A stretch of DNA of 35,823 bases, taken from positions 1 through 35,823 of the forward strand of contig JAQUME010000007.1 in NCBI GenBank assembly GCA_028718245.1, written 5' to 3'. Source of the DNA: Candidatus Omnitrophota bacterium (GTDB lineage: Bacteria; Omnitrophota; Gorgyraeia; Gygaellales; Profunditerraquicolaceae). The notes beneath the pieces are model-generated. The model ran no database searches, was not told where the DNA came from, and saw only the letters and a list, made by a program, of their open reading frames with translations. Of the stretch, positions 26,021 through 34,366 are shown in pieces; position 1 is the stretch's first letter, and every line of letters starts with the position of its first letter. The position numbers and the translations under genes are program-made.

Positions 26021-27196
26021 ATGAAAATAGATACAAGGCTTGCCGAGCGTCTAAAAAAGATACATCCTTCTTCAACCTTGGCGATAACCTCCAAAGCCAG
26101 GAAATTGAGATCTGAAGGAAAGGATATTGTCAGTTTTGCCGCCGGAGAACCGGATTTTGACACCCCGGATTTTGTAAAAGACGCAGGCATCGCGGCCATC
26201 AAGGCCGGATTTACCAAGTACACCCCCACCACAGGCATACCTGAATTAAAAAAGCTTATCTGCCAGAAATTCAAAAAGGATAACTCCCTGGAATACGCGC
26301 CTGATCAGATTATTGTCTCAAACGGCGCCAAGCACTCTATTTACAACGCCCTTATGGTGCTCTTGAACCAACATGATGAGGTGCTTATTCCGGTGCCTTA
26401 CTGGGTAAGTTACCCTGAAATGGTCCGCCTCTGCCAGGGGAGCCCGCGTTTTATCAAAACCAAGGCCGCGGATAATTTTAAGATAACCCTCAAAGATCTG
26501 CGTAAACATATCAGCCCCAAAACCAAAGTATTGATCCTCAACAGCCCGTCTAACCCGGCCGGGGCTGTCTATGACCGTTCTGAACTGCAGGAGATAGCCG
26601 ATCTCTGCGTGGAAAAGAATATTTTCGTGGTCAGCGATGAAATTTATGAAAAAATAATTTTTGACGGCCGCAAACATGAATCCATAGCCGGCTTCAACAA
26701 AAATATCTACGATCTGGCCATCACGGTCAACGGCTTATCCAAAAGTTATTCCATGACCGGCTGGCGTATCGGTTACCTGGGAGCGCCGCATGATGTAGCC
26801 GCGGCTATCTCAAACCTTCAGGACCACTCAACCTCAAACCCTAACTCTATCGCCCAGAAGGCCGCGGTGGCCGCCTTAAGCGCTCCCGAAGATTTTACGG
26901 CCGGTCTTTGCCTTGAGTTTCAAAAGAGAAGGGATTATCTGGCTGAAAGATTAAAAAATATCTCCAAGCTAAGCTTCAGGCTCCCGCAGGGAGCGTTTTA
27001 TATATTTTGTGATATATCCAGGACAGGGCTTGATTCCGCAAGTTTTTCCGGCCGGCTTTTGGAGGAGGAATATGTAAGTGTTATTCCGGGATCTGCTTTT
27101 GGCATGGATGATTTTATAAGGATAAGCTTCGCCACAAGCATGGAAGAATTAAAAAAAGGTATGGACAGGATAGAAAGGTGGGTATCTTCCCTGTGA
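26021..27196 (+). CDS. PLP-dependent class I aminotransferase, probable aspartate aminotransferase
   Basis: SFAAGEPDFDTPDFVKDAG, NSPSNPAGAVYDRSEL, VSDEIYEKIIFDG, NGLSKSYSMTGWRIGYLGAP (PLP lysine). Confidence 0.92.
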   Translation: MKIDTRLAERLKKIHPSSTLAITSKARKLRSEGKDIVSFAAGEPDFDTPDFVKDAGIAAIKAGFTKYTPTTGIPELKKLICQKFKKDNSLEYAPDQIIVSNGAKHSIYNALMVLLNQHDEVLIPVPYWVSYPEMVRLCQGSPRFIKTKAADNFKITLKDLRKHISPKTKVLILNSPSNPAGAVYDRSELQEIADLCVEKNIFVVSDEIYEKIIFDGRKHESIAGFNKNIYDLAITVNGLSKSYSMTGWRIGYLGAPHDVAAAISNLQDHSTSNPNSIAQKAAVAALSAPEDFTAGLCLEFQKRRDYLAERLKNISKLSFRLPQGAFYIFCDISRTGLDSASFSGRLLEEEYVSVIPGSAFGMDDFIRISFATSMEELKKGMDRIERWVSSL

Positions 27197-28449
27197 GCGG
27201 CCAGACCATTGCCGAAAAAATATTAAGCCGCCATTCGGGCAAAACCCTGGCTGCCGGTGATTTCGCGGTGTGCAAAGTGGATTTTGCTTTTGGCCAGGAC
27301 GGCACCTCATCCATTATTATCGACCGGATCAAGGAGATGGGGGTAAATAAACTGAAGACCGACTTTTGCATGGTCATTGACCACAGCGCCCCAAGCCCGA
27401 GTGAAGGGGTGTCGCGGGTGCATAAGAAGATGCGCGATTTTGCCCAAGCATTCGGCACGGAGATCTTTGATATCGGCTGCGGGATATGCCATCAGGTCAT
27501 CCCGGAGTCCGGAAAAGTCTTACCCGGAGACCTGGTGCTGGGAGCAGATTCTCACACCTGCACCTATGGTGCGATCGGCGCCTTCTCTACGGGGGTCGGC
27601 TCTACGGATCTAGCCATAACCCTGGCTACCGGTAAAAATTGGTTCAAGGTGCCGGCGACCATAAAGATAATCGTCAAAGGCAAGCCGGCCAAGGGGGTTT
27701 TTGCCAAGGATATTATCCTGCATATAATCGGCAGCCTGAAGGCAGACGGCGCTACCTATAAAGCAGTTGAATTTTACGGCCCGGTGATCGATAATATGGA
27801 TATGGACGGCCGTTTTACCGTATGCAATATGCTGGTTGAGATGGGCGCTAAATGCGGTTTCATGCCGGTAGATGAGAAAACCTTGGACTGGTTTAAGCCG
27901 AGGGTTAAAAAAGGAAAGCAGCTGAAGGGGATTACTGCCGACCCAGAGGCCATTTATGAAAATGTTTATGAATTTGATGTTTCCAAAGTCAAGCCCCAGG
28001 TTTCCATTCCGCACAGCGTGGATAATACGGCGGAGGCGGCATCTTTGGAGAAGGTAAAAATAAACCAGGCATTCCTGGGCACCTGCACCAACGGCCGGAT
28101 CAATGATTTCAAGATAGCGGCGAAAATCCTCAAAAATCGCAAGGTGCATCCGTTCGTAAGGATGATCATCGCCCCAAGCTCTAAAACCGTTTACCTGGAA
28201 GCGATAAAGCTGGGCCTGGTGGATATATTCATCAAGGCCGGAGCCGTGATCGTGGCCCCGGGCTGCGGCCCCTGCGTAGGCACGCATAACGGTGTCCCTT
28301 CAGACGGTGAAGTGGTCATCTCAACTGCCAACCGTAATTTCAAGGGCAGGATGGGGAACCCGGCGGCATTTATTTACCTGGCTTCCCCGGCGACAGTAGC
28401 GGCTTCTGCGGTTAAGGGCTATATAACCGACCCAAGGGGTTATTTATAA
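27193..28449 (+). CDS. LeuC/aconitase-family dehydratase large subunit (IPM dehydratase / homoaconitase / aconitase-like)
   Basis: GQTIAEKILSRHSGK, LGADSHTCTYGAIGAFSTGVGSTDLA, LGTCTNGRINDF, APGCGPCVGTHNG Fe-S ligands; GTG at 27193 overlaps aminotransferase stop and fits the family N-terminus better than GTG 27178. Confidence 0.93.
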   Translation: MSGQTIAEKILSRHSGKTLAAGDFAVCKVDFAFGQDGTSSIIIDRIKEMGVNKLKTDFCMVIDHSAPSPSEGVSRVHKKMRDFAQAFGTEIFDIGCGICHQVIPESGKVLPGDLVLGADSHTCTYGAIGAFSTGVGSTDLAITLATGKNWFKVPATIKIIVKGKPAKGVFAKDIILHIIGSLKADGATYKAVEFYGPVIDNMDMDGRFTVCNMLVEMGAKCGFMPVDEKTLDWFKPRVKKGKQLKGITADPEAIYENVYEFDVSKVKPQVSIPHSVDNTAEAASLEKVKINQAFLGTCTNGRINDFKIAAKILKNRKVHPFVRMIIAPSSKTVYLEAIKLGLVDIFIKAGAVIVAPGCGPCVGTHNGVPSDGEVVISTANRNFKGRMGNPAAFIYLASPATVAASAVKGYITDPRGYL

Positions 28450-28460
28450 GGAGGTTACCG

Positions 28461-29507
28461 ATGGAGATCCACGATCTGCTGTTAATGTGTATTCAAAAAG
28501 GCGCTTCTGATCTTCATGTTACGGATAATGAGCCGCCGATCCTGCGCATTGACGGAAGATTAATGCGCTCCGGCCTCGAGGTATTGCACAAAGACGATTT
28601 AAAGAAGATGATCTACAGCGTGCTCTCCAATAACCAGAAGGAGATCTTTGAGCGCGAGTTAGAGCTGGATTTTTCCCTGGCCCTTCCTGACCTTGATCGT
28701 TTCCGCGTAAATATTCATTTGCAGAAGGGCTCTGTTGAGGCGGCATTCCGCCGTATCCCCCTGGAGATCCCCGGCATCGATACCCTTGGCCTGCCAAAGA
28801 TAGCCGCCGAGCTGGCCCGCAGGCCAAACGGCCTGGTCCTGGTCACCGGCCCGACAGGGATGGGCAAGACCACGACCCTGGCCGCCATGGTCGATCTTAT
28901 CAATAACGAAAGGGAATGCATGATCATGTGCATTGAAGACCCGATCGAATTTGTCCATAGCAACAAGAAAAGCATAATTAAACAGCGGGAGGTTTATTCG
29001 GATACGCATTCTTTTGCCCAGGCCCTGCGCCATACTCTGCGCCAGGATCCCAATGTTATCGTAGTCGGGGAGATGCGTGACCTGGAAACCATCGCCACCG
29101 CCCTGACCGCGGCTGAGACCGGGCACCTTGTGTTAGCCACTTTGCATACGCCGGATGCACCGCAGACCGTTTCAAGGATCATTGATGTCTTTCCGCCGCA
29201 CCAGCAGCAGCAGATAAGGTTTCAGCTTTCCGACTGTCTCCAGGGGGTAATTTCGCAGCTTCTTCTGCCGCACGCATCAGGCAAGGGCAGGGTCCTGGCC
29301 ACGGAGGTAATGATCGCTACTTCGGGTATCCGCAATCTTATACGGGAGCAGGAGATCGAGCAGATCCCGACCCTTATGCAGACGGGTTCGCAGCACGGTA
29401 TGCACACGATGGATAAGTGCCTGAAAGAATTGTTCCAAAAACAATTGATCACCCTGGACATGGCCATGTCTAAGGTTAAGAACAGGGAGGAATTCAAACA
29501 GCTGTGA
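28461..29507 (+). CDS. pilT: PilT-type twitching motility / type IV pilus retraction ATPase
   Basis: GASDLHVTDNEPPILRIDGRL, Walker A GPTGMGKTTTLAAM, RQDPNVIVVGEMRDLETIATALTAAETGHLVLATLHT, IRNLIRE motif; SD aaggaggttaccgATG. Confidence 0.96.
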   Translation: MEIHDLLLMCIQKGASDLHVTDNEPPILRIDGRLMRSGLEVLHKDDLKKMIYSVLSNNQKEIFERELELDFSLALPDLDRFRVNIHLQKGSVEAAFRRIPLEIPGIDTLGLPKIAAELARRPNGLVLVTGPTGMGKTTTLAAMVDLINNERECMIMCIEDPIEFVHSNKKSIIKQREVYSDTHSFAQALRHTLRQDPNVIVVGEMRDLETIATALTAAETGHLVLATLHTPDAPQTVSRIIDVFPPHQQQQIRFQLSDCLQGVISQLLLPHASGKGRVLATEVMIATSGIRNLIREQEIEQIPTLMQTGSQHGMHTMDKCLKELFQKQLITLDMAMSKVKNREEFKQL

Positions 29508-30004
29508 TAATCGCCGGTGAAAGCATAAAATTAGGGGACAATATCAACACGGATTTCATCATCTCCGGAAGGTATAAGTTCGCTATCACCGATATGAAGG
29601 AGCTGGCCAAGCATATCATGGAGGATATTGACCCGAACTTCCCGGCTAAGATCACCCCGGGTAAATCCATAATCGTGGCGGGTAATAATTTCGGTATGGG
29701 CTCCAGCCGCGAACAAGCCCCCCTGGTGATCAAGGAGGCCGGGATCGCGGCGGTTTTGGCCAGTGAATTTGCGCGCATATTCTTCCGCAACGGATTTAAT
29801 ATCGGCCTGCCCTTGATCCAGACAGATACCTCCAGGATCGATGAGCATGATGCTTTGGAGATCGACCTGGATAAGGGAGTGGTAAAGAATATAACCAAGG
29901 GTATTGATCTTAAGATCAGGCCTTTGCCCAAATTCATGCAGGATCTTCTGTCTGAAGGCGGCATAATCAACTATTACAAAAAACACGGAGAACTGAAAGT
30001 CTAA
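29504..30004 (+). CDS. LeuD/aconitase-family dehydratase small subunit
   Basis: GDNINTDFIISGRYKF, AGNNFGMGSSREQAPLVIKEAGIAAVLASEFARIFFRNGFNIGLPL; GTG start overlaps pilT stop (GTGA). Confidence 0.94.
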   Translation: MIIAGESIKLGDNINTDFIISGRYKFAITDMKELAKHIMEDIDPNFPAKITPGKSIIVAGNNFGMGSSREQAPLVIKEAGIAAVLASEFARIFFRNGFNIGLPLIQTDTSRIDEHDALEIDLDKGVVKNITKGIDLKIRPLPKFMQDLLSEGGIINYYKKHGELKV

Positions 30005-31093
30005 ATGAAACATACGATAACCCTGATCCCCGGAGATGGCATAGGTTATGAGGTTTCCCTGGCTGCCAAGAGATGTGTTGATGCGACAGGAGTAAATATT
30101 GCCTGGGAAGAGGCCTTAGCCGGGGCTGATAGCCTGGAGAAAACAGGGGAGATCCTTCCGCAAGCAGCGCTGGATTCGATAAGAAAGAACAAAGTTTGCC
30201 TTAAAGGCCCGATCACTACACCTATAGGAACGGGTTTTCGTTCGGTGAATGTGGCGATCAGGCAGGTATTAGAGCTTTATGCCTGCGTGCGTCCGGCAAA
30301 GAGTTACCCGGGAATTAAAAGCCGTTTTAAGGATATTGACCTGGTTATTATCAGGGAGAATAGCGAAGACCTTTATTCAGGGATCGAATTTGAGGAGGGG
30401 GACCCTAAGACAAAAGCCCTGATCAGACGGATCGAGGAGGATACTGATAGAAAGATCCGGGCTGACTCCGGGATCACGATAAAACCGATATCTAAGTTTG
30501 CCTCTGAGCGGATCGCCAGGTTTGCTTTTCAATATGCCCTGGAAAATAACCGCAAGAAGATCACCTGCGTGCATAAGGCAAATATCATGAAGTTTACCGA
30601 CGGCTTATTCCTGAAGAGCTGCCGTGAGGTGGCGCGGGATTTTGAGGGAAAAATAAAATTTGAAGATACGATAGTTGATAATATGTCCATGCAGCTGGTG
30701 ACCAAACCCAATAATTATGATCTCCTGCTTTTGCCTAACCTCTACGGGGATATCATCTCTGACCTTTGCGCCGGGCTTATCGGCGGTTTGGGGGTTGCCC
30801 CGGGAGCGAATATCGGAAAAGACGCGGCGGTCTTTGAGGCGGTGCACGGATCTGCCCCAAAATACAAAGGGCAGAATAAGGTTAACCCCACGGCGATGAT
30901 CTTATCCGGGGTTTTGATGCTGCGCCACATCAAAGAGGAGGCAGCTGCCGCTAAACTCGAGAATGCCGTAAAGGAGATAATTTCAGAGGGAAAATTTGTT
31001 ACCTATGACCTAAAGGCAGATCCGCTTGATCCGTCAGCTGTCGGCACCAGTGAAATGGCCGACGCCATTATCAATAAACTAAAGAAAAGTTAG
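30005..31093 (+). CDS. Isocitrate dehydrogenase family (short, IDH3-like), candidate NADP-preferring
   Basis: ITLIPGDGIGYEVS, LKGPITTPIGTGFRSVNVAIRQVLELYACVRP, IRENSEDLYSGIEF, VHKANIMKFTDGLFL, LYGDIISDLCAGLIGGLGVAPGANIG, HGSAPKYKGQNKVNPTA. Confidence 0.9.
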   Translation: MKHTITLIPGDGIGYEVSLAAKRCVDATGVNIAWEEALAGADSLEKTGEILPQAALDSIRKNKVCLKGPITTPIGTGFRSVNVAIRQVLELYACVRPAKSYPGIKSRFKDIDLVIIRENSEDLYSGIEFEEGDPKTKALIRRIEEDTDRKIRADSGITIKPISKFASERIARFAFQYALENNRKKITCVHKANIMKFTDGLFLKSCREVARDFEGKIKFEDTIVDNMSMQLVTKPNNYDLLLLPNLYGDIISDLCAGLIGGLGVAPGANIGKDAAVFEAVHGSAPKYKGQNKVNPTAMILSGVLMLRHIKEEAAAAKLENAVKEIISEGKFVTYDLKADPLDPSAVGTSEMADAIINKLKKS

Positions 31094-31099
31094 GTTTCT

Positions 31100-32020
31100 A
31101 TGAAAATATCCGTTATCGGCGCCGGGAATGTGGGGAGTTTAACGGCTATGCGCATCGCCCAGGATGGTTTGGGCGATGTTTTGCTTATTGATGTAGTCAA
31201 AGGCAGGGCTGCGGGAAAGGCCATGGACTTAGAGGATGCCCGGCCCCTTTTAAAATTCAACTATCATATCAAAGGCAGCGATGATATAGGGGAGCTCAAG
31301 GATTCGGATATCGTGGTAGTTACCGCCGGGCTTGCCCGTACTCCCGGTATGACCCGGGAAGAGTTATTAGCCAGGAACGCGCAGATCTTAAAAGATGTCT
31401 GCCTGAACATAAAAAAACAGTCCCCCGGCGCCACAGTTATAATAGTGACCAATCCTCTTGATATTATGACCCTCTATGCTTTAAAGATAACCGGATTCAA
31501 GCCGAATAAACTTTTCGGCATGGGCTCAAGCCTTGATTCCGCAAGGTTTGCCAATCTTATCGCCCAGGAATTGAACCTTGCGGCTACGGATATTGAAGCG
31601 GTAGTTATCGGCGCTCATGGGGAAGGGATGCTTCCTTTGCCCAGATTTACCAAGGTCAAGGGGGTTTCCCTTGATGAGTTTTTAGAGGATAAAAAGATCG
31701 AAGCATTGGCCGGCCGGGCGGTCAACCGGGGCGCTGAGATCGTCAGCAGCCTTGGTACAGGCAGCGCTTTTTTTGCTCCCTCATCGGCGATCGCCGCCAT
31801 CGTTAAGACAATAGTGAAGGATGAGAAACGCACCATCGGCTTATGCAGTTATTTAAACGGGGAATACGGGATCAAAGGCGCATGCCTTGGCGTTCCCTGC
31901 CGCCTGGGTAAGCTAGGTATTGAGAAGGTTATTGAATTAGACCTTTCGCAGGAGGAAAGATCCAAGCTGGCTAAATCAGCGAGTCTTGTGGCTCAGGCCG
32001 CAGGGCTTTTGCCGGTTTGA
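31100..32020 (+). CDS. mdh: Malate dehydrogenase (LDH-like family, NAD-type)
   Basis: ISVIGAGNVGSLTAMRIAQDGLGDVLLIDVV, TAGLARTPGMTREELLARNAQI, VTNPLDIMT, LDSARF, GAHGEGMLPLPRF. Confidence 0.94.
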   Translation: MKISVIGAGNVGSLTAMRIAQDGLGDVLLIDVVKGRAAGKAMDLEDARPLLKFNYHIKGSDDIGELKDSDIVVVTAGLARTPGMTREELLARNAQILKDVCLNIKKQSPGATVIIVTNPLDIMTLYALKITGFKPNKLFGMGSSLDSARFANLIAQELNLAATDIEAVVIGAHGEGMLPLPRFTKVKGVSLDEFLEDKKIEALAGRAVNRGAEIVSSLGTGSAFFAPSSAIAAIVKTIVKDEKRTIGLCSYLNGEYGIKGACLGVPCRLGKLGIEKVIELDLSQEERSKLAKSASLVAQAAGLLPV

Positions 32021-32033
32021 TCCAGGCCTATCT

Positions 32034-33323
32034 ATGCATGATTATGATCTCTCTGTTATCGGAGGAGGCTGGGCGGGTTTTAACGCCTGCCTGAAAGCAA
32101 AGGAGGCAAAGCTTAAGGCCTGCCTTATTGAGGCCTCCCGGATCGGCGGGACCTGCCTTAACTCCGGCTGTATACCTACCAAAGCACTGATCCAATCCGC
32201 AAAAATATATTCACTCGTAAAAAAGTCATCCGGCTTTGGCATTGAGTTGGATAACCCCCGAGTTAACTTCGCTAAGATACAAGAGAGAAAAGAAAGGATC
32301 GTCGGACAGCTTGCTCAAGGCATGATATCCCGGCTTTCCGGTATTGATCTTGTCAATTCAGGCGCCCGGATAGTTTCGCCCAATGAAATAGAGGCAGGCT
32401 CCCGCCGGATCACAACCAAATTCATAATTATCGCTACCGGGAGCTCAGCCGTTGAATTGCCGGGTTTTAAGTTTGATCCCGAAAAAATTATCAACAGCGA
32501 TCAGGCTCTGCTCTTAGAGGAGGTACCGCAGTCCTTATTGATCATCGGCGGAGGGTTTATCGGCTGCGAATTTGCCGGGCTGTTCTCAACCTTAGGAAGC
32601 CGGGTAAGTATCGTAGAAAAATGCCCGCAGCTTTTGCCGGGCGCGGATAAAGAGGTTGCCAAAAAAATAGAGATAATTTTTAAGAAGAAAGGCATCAAGG
32701 TCAATACGGATACCGATGCCTCCGCGTTGAATTTAAATGATTATTCCAAGATCCTGGTTTGCGTAGGCAGAGTACCCAATACCCGCGCTCTTGGTTTGGT
32801 GGAAGCAGGAATAAAGACAGAGAAGGACCGCATTGTCGTCAATGATTACCTTCAGAGCAATATCCCCAACATATACGCGGCCGGAGACTGCGCCTCTTCC
32901 GTCATGCTGGCGCATTACGCGGCTTACCAGGGAAGGTTGGCGGTTGACAATATAGTTAAAGAGCTCAGCCATAAGGCGGATAACCGGGTAATTCCCTCCT
33001 GTATATTTACCGATCCTGAGATCTCCAGGGTCGGCATAAATGAAGATGAGGCTAAAGCCGGCGGCCTGGAGGTCAATGTGCACAGGTTTGATTTCCTCGG
33101 CTCCGGGATGGCGCGCCTCATTGATGAGACGGAGGGGTTCATTAAGATCATCAGCGACGCCGCCAGCGGCCGGATACTCGGAGCCTCTATCATCGGGCCG
33201 AAGGCCTCGGAATTGATCGCCATTTTCACCGTAGCTGTATCCGCCCAACTGAAAGTAAGCCAGATGCGCGAAATGATCTTCGCGCATCCCACGCTTGCGG
33301 AATCTGTGCACGAAGCACTTTGA
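32034..33323 (+). CDS. lpdA: Dihydrolipoamide dehydrogenase, compact (429 aa)
   Basis: SVIGGGWAGFNACLKAKEAKLKACLIEASRIGGTCLNSGCIPTKAL redox disulfide, LLIIGGGFIGCEFA, NIYAAGDC, FAHPTLAESVHEAL; ATG 32034 preferred over upstream TTG 31986. Confidence 0.93.
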   Translation: MHDYDLSVIGGGWAGFNACLKAKEAKLKACLIEASRIGGTCLNSGCIPTKALIQSAKIYSLVKKSSGFGIELDNPRVNFAKIQERKERIVGQLAQGMISRLSGIDLVNSGARIVSPNEIEAGSRRITTKFIIIATGSSAVELPGFKFDPEKIINSDQALLLEEVPQSLLIIGGGFIGCEFAGLFSTLGSRVSIVEKCPQLLPGADKEVAKKIEIIFKKKGIKVNTDTDASALNLNDYSKILVCVGRVPNTRALGLVEAGIKTEKDRIVVNDYLQSNIPNIYAAGDCASSVMLAHYAAYQGRLAVDNIVKELSHKADNRVIPSCIFTDPEISRVGINEDEAKAGGLEVNVHRFDFLGSGMARLIDETEGFIKIISDAASGRILGASIIGPKASELIAIFTVAVSAQLKVSQMREMIFAHPTLAESVHEAL

Positions 33324-33348
33324 TCCGTTGCAAGCGCTTTGATATTTG

Positions 33349-33456
33349 TAGGGGACGTTCCCCCAGGTACCATCCTTTGTATTTTTAACTCTTTGTAAAT
33401 CAGTAAATTACAATAAGGTATTATAAAAAGGGTGTCCCCTTAGGGAACGTCCCCTA
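33349..33456. repeat. ~108-bp intergenic element bounded by exact 14-bp inverted repeats (REP/MITE-like)
   Basis: TAGGGGACGTTCCC (33349-33362) and its exact reverse complement GGGAACGTCCCCTA (33443-33456); nested AAGGGTGTCCCCTT hairpin 33428-33441. Confidence 0.75.
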
Positions 33457-33485
33457 TTTCTTAAGACAGGCGCCTGGAGGTAGAA

Positions 33486-34121
33486 ATGAAATTAGAGGTT
33501 ATTGATCTTGGCCTGGTGGATTATCTGGAGGCCTGGGATGTACAAAAGGATACGCTGGCAAAGGTGATCAACAATGACCTGGATTCCGCGCTGATACTCT
33601 GCCGGCATTACCCTGTCGTCACTTTGGGTAGGGCTGCGTCACGGAAAAGCCTTAGGTTAGGGGAAGAATTGATCCGGGAGAAGGGGATTAAGCTTTACAA
33701 TATCGAGCGCGGCGGGGATGCGACCTACCATGGCCCCGGTCAGCTGACGGTTTATCCGGTCTTAAACCTGGGTTATTTCAAAAAAGATATTCATTGGTTC
33801 TTAAGAGAGCTTGAATCCCTGATCATCTCTTCCCTGGCAGATCTTAACCTGCCTGTTTCAAGAGTAGAGGGTTTTACCGGCGCCTGGATAGGGAATAAGA
33901 AGATCGCCTCCATCGGCATTGCCATAAAACATTGGGTAACTTATCACGGGCTCAGTATAAATATAAAAAAAGATGACCTGGCTAACTTTGGCCTGATCAG
34001 GCCTTGCGGTATGGATATCAAAGTTACCAGCCTTGAAGAGGAATTGGGAAGGCAGGTAAGCGTAGAAGAGGTAAGGTCAAGCTTATTGAACAAATTTTCT
34101 GGAAGATTGGGGAATAATTAG
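33486..34121 (+). CDS. lipB: Lipoyl(octanoyl) transferase
   Basis: ERGGDATYHGPGQLTVYPVLNL, GAWIGNKKIASIGIAIKHWVTYHGLSINI, LIRPCGM (catalytic Lys and Cys motifs). Confidence 0.96.
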   Translation: MKLEVIDLGLVDYLEAWDVQKDTLAKVINNDLDSALILCRHYPVVTLGRAASRKSLRLGEELIREKGIKLYNIERGGDATYHGPGQLTVYPVLNLGYFKKDIHWFLRELESLIISSLADLNLPVSRVEGFTGAWIGNKKIASIGIAIKHWVTYHGLSINIKKDDLANFGLIRPCGMDIKVTSLEEELGRQVSVEEVRSSLLNKFSGRLGNN

Positions 34122-34129
34122 GAGGGGCT

Positions 34130-34366
34130 ATGGTAAATGTCATTCTGCCGGAATTAGGAGAAGGGATCACAAAGGCAACGGTTTCCTACTGGTTTTTTAA
34201 GGTTGGCGAAAAGGTCAAGGAAAAAGATGACCTGGTTGAGCTGACTACCGACAAGGCCACCTTTAACCTGCCCAGCCCCTGTTCCGGGGTGCTTTCCGAA
34301 ATATTGCACAGCGAAGGGGAGAGCGTAGAGGTAGGCCAGGTATTGGCACTTATTGACAATACCTGA
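34130..34366 (+). CDS. Stand-alone lipoyl/biotinyl-domain protein (78 aa), E2-type lipoyl domain
   Basis: VILPELGEGITKATVSYWFFKVGEKVKEKDDLVELTTDKATFNLPSPCSGVLSEIL..VGQVLALID; lipoyl-lysine motif TDKA (K42); SD aggagggg. Confidence 0.93.
   Translation: MVNVILPELGEGITKATVSYWFFKVGEKVKEKDDLVELTTDKATFNLPSPCSGVLSEILHSEGESVEVGQVLALIDNT

Follow-up and report, generated by a model that had tools for sequence, protein, structure and literature searches.

A putative orphan lipoyl carrier and its lipoylation genes in Omnitrophota genomes without a detectable E2 catalytic domain

Gene content of the locus

The window (the whole 35,823-nucleotide stretch of DNA analysed here, from a Candidatus Omnitrophota bacterium) encodes three lipoate-linked proteins: a dihydrolipoamide dehydrogenase (LPD, or E3), the octanoyltransferase LipB, and a protein made of a single lipoyl domain, hereafter the carrier. 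Their clustering on the forward strand, proposed in the original prediction, is borne out by equivalog scores for the two enzymes and a PF00364 match for the carrier. Homologues of aconitase, isocitrate dehydrogenase (IDH), and malate dehydrogenase (MDH) lie upstream in the same direction. Thus, the module is part of a longer conserved gene row:

27178..28449, + strand: aconitase/LeuC-type large subunit (NF001614, over cut-off)
29504..30004, + strand: aconitase/LeuD-type small subunit (TIGR02087, over cut-off)
30005..31093, + strand: isocitrate dehydrogenase homologue (PF00180, 340 bits)
31100..32020, + strand: malate dehydrogenase homologue (NF004863, over cut-off)
32034..33323, + strand: LPD/E3, dihydrolipoamide dehydrogenase, 429 aa (TIGR01350, over cut-off)
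33349..33456, no strand assigned: lpd-lipB intergenic 34-nt imperfect inverted repeat (AGGGGACGTTCCC)
33486..34121, + strand: LipB octanoyltransferase, 211 aa (TIGR00214, over cut-off)
34130..34366, + strand: free E2-type lipoyl carrier, 78 aa (PF00364), with the predicted lipoyl lysine K42 in TTDKATFNLPSP

The carrier gene starts 8 nt past the LipB stop codon and has a strong ribosome-binding site (AGGAGG). In a profile search, PF00364 matches residues 4-75 of the protein with 72.3 bits (cut-off 22.1), and SucB is the top NCBIfam model for its lipoyl domain. The AlphaFold model has a pLDDT of 96.9, displays a complete lipoyl domain fold, and superposes on the best-matching E2 lipoyl domains with TM scores of 0.8-0.97. 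The ORF stops at 78 aa, with neither a peripheral-subunit-binding domain nor a PF00198 acyltransferase domain after the lipoyl domain. A complete E2-type lipoyl domain with a clean stop, as first described, is therefore present. The carrier has the DKA-lysine lipoyl domain characteristic of 2-oxoacid dehydrogenase E2, and K42 is predicted to be lipoylated. Biotin_lipoyl is its sole match; similarity to PF01597 (GCV_H) is absent, which sets it apart from GcvH-like proteins such as GcvH and LbpA.

The two enzymes display the hallmarks of their families. LPD scores 436.7 bits against TIGR01350 (cut-off 408.8), contains the redox pair CLNSGC (Cys41/Cys46, the CxxxxC motif) and a C-terminal HPTLAE with the His-Glu dyad, and has bacterial E3s as its closest solved relatives. 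LipB scores 141.9 bits against TIGR00214 (cut-off 83.55) and contains the motifs GGDATYHGPGQ, KIASIG, and PCG, with the catalytic Lys and Cys in place. The window itself encodes no E1, E2, GcvH/P/T, or subunit-binding domain, in agreement with the original prediction. LipA, also listed there as missing, has no copy in the window but is encoded elsewhere in the genome, on contig C14 (profile search), and has the cluster and RSSY motifs.

Conservation of the carrier

All of the evidence consists of sequences of metagenome-assembled genomes. Conservation was followed in 77 Omnitrophota genomes, comprising the window's genome and relatives from its genus, family, order, and class. By sequence search, the carrier is encoded separately in 64 of the 77, with a length of 75-82 aa after trimming to starts (approximately 78-109 codons untrimmed), and never within an E2 in these 64 genomes. 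W21, D34, E37, T40, K42, and F45 are invariant in all 64 sequences, and N46 is found in 63. The motif adjoining the carrier lysine, TDKATFNLPSP, is family-specific; FNLPSP marks the carrier family because the E2 lipoyl domains in the alignment carry Glu or Gly in place of N46. Where calculable, pairwise dN/dS is 0-0.13, and the carrier is, as judged from its coding sequences, under strong purifying selection. Conservation among 79 loci retrieved with exact peptide patterns was set aside because the patterns include TDKATFNL and are biased; the 64-sequence set was used instead. The named carrier-bearing contigs from that pattern search all belong to Omnitrophota, except two titled just 'bacterium'. 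A decaying E2 fragment, named at the outset as a finding that would overturn the proposal, is ruled out by the free-standing conservation, the invariant K42, and the low dN/dS.

The carrier shares PF00364, the fold, the TDKA lysine hairpin, the LPELGEG loop, and an LPD partner with the lipoyl domain of 2-oxoacid dehydrogenase E2 (SucB/AceF). Unlike SucB and AceF, it is a single 78-aa protein with no subunit-binding or catalytic domain, in a set of genomes with no E2. Additionally, A16 and F45-N46 beside the lysine are specific to the carrier family.

Search for E1, E2, and glycine cleavage enzymes

A profile search places the E2 catalytic domain (PF00198) over cut-off in 0 of the 77 genomes, against 10 of the 14 control genomes. 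Forty of the 77 are at least 90% complete with at most 5% contamination, and the domain is also absent from the order-level relative G051, which is assembled in two contigs. E1 and GcvH families were searched in the window's genome, which is 92.25% complete in 99 contigs. E1 is absent there, the PF02779 matches over cut-off being DXS and two transketolase-type pairs. Thus, the suggestion that the carrier serves an E1/E2 encoded elsewhere is not supported for the window's genome, and no complete PDH or OGDH complex was found. Omnitrophota genomes from Ace Lake have a horseshoe-type TCA cycle that ends at 2-oxoglutarate, without OGOR and succinyl-CoA synthetase (PMC8542988), and a horseshoe-type cycle in Omnitrophota is mentioned elsewhere as well (PMC10066038). 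These reports agree with the missing E1/E2 complex.

Glycine cleavage is likewise not recognizable in the window's genome. The PF01597 search for GcvH returned only AccB, below cut-off, and GcvP is absent. Among the 77 genomes, 35 encode GcvP.

Gene order and lipoylation enzymes in relatives

Among 56 related loci that extend far enough upstream, the carrier is preceded by LPD in 53, MDH in 51, IDH in 48, LipB in 34, and LipA in 2. The co-occurrence of lpd, lipB, and the lipoyl gene in relatives, which the original prediction had put forward as a check, thus holds for LPD in most loci and for LipB in more than half. The loci without LipB are mostly from the window's own genus. In one member with such a locus (L156), the glycine cleavage cluster reads gcvT-gcvH-gcvPA-gcvPB-lplA-lipA. 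The LplA-type enzyme may load both carriers, as lplA-lipA sits in the glycine cleavage cluster of members whose carrier locus lacks LipB. LplA-type enzymes of relatives were identified from the loci read.

In deep lineages, the TCA genes are gone while LPD-LipB-LipA-carrier is kept (G073), and LipB-carrier is kept without LPD nearby in G067 and G076. The core of the module is therefore the lipoylation set, since TCA genes drop out in these lineages while lipoylation genes stay; the TCA genes are possibly just inherited neighbours.

LipA is kept in 30 of 35 genomes with the carrier and without GcvP, compared with 3 of 7 genomes that have neither, and LipA is missing from the two of these seven with a completeness of at least 90% (Fisher p = 0.028, uncorrected for kinship and small numbers). 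G012 and G019, two genomes of the same genus that are 95% complete, encode the carrier and LPD, with LipA and GcvP undetected. The row pta-ackA-panD-def-lipA occurs in the window's genome and in G051. The sequence read from G018 has def-lipA-trxB, and trxB follows lipA in both G018 and the window's genome (L168, L169, and L171 for the three lipA loci).

A putative redox carrier

The known clients of lipoate are limited to 2-oxoacid dehydrogenases, glycine cleavage, and a small number of special carriers. Literature searches on lipoyl in Omnitrophota or on free lipoyl-domain proteins returned no description of the module. The carrier, LPD, LipB, and LipA appear to form a lipoylation/redox module, dedicated and conserved, whose carrier is an orphan; the module is regarded as dedicated because the window's species, without glycine cleavage, still keeps LipA, LipB, and LPD. 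The chance is slightly better than even that this Omnitrophota system is class-wide and that its independent E2-type lipoylated carrier, with its dedicated E3, LipB, and LipA and no 2-oxoacid dehydrogenase complex, takes part in a previously undescribed reaction that depends on lipoate. If a large uncultured group without E2 conserves such a free carrier, the list of processes that require lipoate would grow by one. The finding also cautions against predicting PDH or OGDH in a metagenome-assembled genome from a lipoyl domain or from lpd, lipA, or lipB. The module is small and therefore easily tested in E. coli.

The carrier probably moves electrons or groups for a partner outside 2-oxoacid dehydrogenase complexes. 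We tentatively favour a redox carrier, with a probability of roughly 0.4. LipB would attach octanoate to the carrier's K42, LipA would insert the sulfurs, and LPD would use NAD(H) to switch the lipoyl arm between its disulfide and dithiol forms. Electrons could then pass from NADH through LPD and the dihydrolipoyl carrier to a disulfide or peroxide reductase, although the direction of flow and the target are inferred. Redox cycling by LPD is the simplest remaining chemistry, as LipB, LipA, LPD, and the carrier are present without E1/E2, and LPD is the most constant neighbour of the carrier. The retention of LipA in 30 of the 35 carrier genomes without GcvP also speaks for this reading. With no E2 catalytic domain in the 77 genomes and no E1 in the window's genome, no enzymes for reductive acylation or CoA transfer are visible. 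The original proposal, in which a freestanding lipoylated carrier and its own E3 have a non-canonical role, is thus supported by the breadth of conservation, purifying selection, and the missing PF00198.

Three known systems resemble this arrangement. LbpA of Hdr-like sulfur oxidation is also a lipoyl domain that stands alone as a protein; it has a dedicated loading enzyme and a suggested redox link to NAD via LPD (PMC6067878). However, LbpA is GcvH-like, whereas the carrier is E2-type, has LipB and LipA as its likely loaders, and lies in a row of TCA genes. No sHdr gene cluster was noticed in the loci that were read. GcvH-L of the LplA2/SirTM operon is likewise a lipoyl carrier with a role other than glycine cleavage, and it has both a loading enzyme of its own and an oxidoreductase partner (PMC4518038). 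Unlike the carrier, GcvH-L is GcvH-like and depends on lipoate salvage, and its operon contains ADP-ribosylation enzymes; none of these features is seen in the carrier's gene row. Both LbpA and GcvH-L are tied to redox or sulfur chemistry (PMC6067878; PMC4518038). Finally, the preferred reductant of Corynebacterium Ohr is Lpd with lipoylated SucB, which is also reported for Xylella and Mycobacterium, and the same pair serves OsmC and AhpC (PMC4486171). There, as may be the case here, LPD and a lipoylated domain supply electrons to cysteine peroxidases; however, the SucB lipoyl domain is part of a working E2, whereas the carrier is free and dedicated.

An OsmC-family protein with two cysteines is encoded on contig C49 of the window's genome and is one candidate in the window's species; other relatives need another, as OsmC occurs in 36 of the 64 carrier genomes. 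This incomplete co-occurrence argues against OsmC as the general partner. AhpD is not a general partner either: AhpD-type proteins (PF02627) over cut-off are absent from the window's genome and the rest of its family and occur in 11 of the 77 genomes overall, which rules out a system like the mycobacterial Lpd/lipoyl/AhpD/AhpC peroxidase. In the related loci, the carrier gene lacks a consistently linked thiol enzyme. Two further points weigh against a redox carrier. The central-carbon neighbours could suggest that the role is metabolic and not defensive, and G012 and G019, without detectable LipA, count against it.

Alternative functions

The strongest rival, although unlikely, is an acyl carrier whose arm is loaded by an unrecognised thiamine enzyme (e.g., a 2-oxoacid:ferredoxin oxidoreductase), unloaded by an unrecognised transferase, and reoxidised by LPD. 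The E2-type sequence with its LPELGEG loop and the gene row that lipA shares with pta and ackA are consistent with this role. In the distant relative G069, contig C9 (L174:3189-6173) encodes E1 alpha and E1 beta beside a 360-aa protein that joins an N-terminal lipoyl domain with PglD_N and hexapeptide acyltransferase domains, without PF00198. The setting looks like a NeuB-type sugar locus, and a route from E1 to a sugar acetyltransferase that bypasses E2 and acetyl-CoA is possible there. This fusion locus raises the possibility that the phylum has enzymes other than E2 that accept acyl groups from lipoyl. However, the window's genome has no E1. It does have a VorB-type oxidoreductase, but this class is ferredoxin-dependent and uses CoA directly. 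The end of the TCA cycle at 2-oxoglutarate in the Ace Lake genomes also argues against acyl transfer.

It is quite improbable that the carrier regulates or chaperones the adjacent aconitase, IDH, and MDH under redox control, with no electron transfer to a separate enzyme. The frequency of MDH and IDH before the carrier gene would fit such a role. However, the TCA linkage is lost in G073 and G050 while LPD-LipB-(LipA)-carrier persists, LipB-carrier outlasts even LPD in G067 and G076, and the conserved order behind rpoA-rplQ may be mere inheritance.

A substitute for GcvH in glycine cleavage is very improbable. GcvP occurs in approximately half of the relatives, and LPD could serve both systems, but the glycine cleavage clusters read in relatives hold a true GcvH, their own LplA-type enzyme, and lipA. 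Moreover, several genomes with glycine cleavage lack the carrier (G030, G070, and G072), and the window's species, which retains the carrier, LPD, LipB, and LipA in the absence of both GcvP and GcvH, contradicts this role directly.

Least probable is a classical complex, either undetected, with its E2 core and E1 in the missing 8% of this fragmented genome, or lost, with the ORF as a relic of OGDH; the SucB match and adjoining TCA genes would suit it, but PF00198 is missing throughout the set, including the high-quality genomes and G051, and the low dN/dS with an invariant K42 strongly opposes decay. Beyond the redox carrier, acyl transfer, and regulation, the remaining weight falls on other roles.

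Other features of the locus

A PilT-type ATPase gene (28461-29507) separates the two aconitase-type subunit genes, as in most relatives. In the carrier-less G030, G033, and G045, a search near accB did not locate the module's operon. In three class-level relatives (L231, L233, and L236), a class I/II aminotransferase gene directly follows the carrier gene. In the window, the downstream gene was described as GAF-HD-GYP; the HD-GYP domain is confirmed, but the GAF match is sub-threshold (26.3 versus 27). Its ORF is listed from TTG 34353, and the likely start is ATG 34389. The inverted repeat between lpd and lipB is probably a short mobile element outside the module's function, and its core recurs on contig C49 (L247:3275-3378) with an identical 92-nt spacing.
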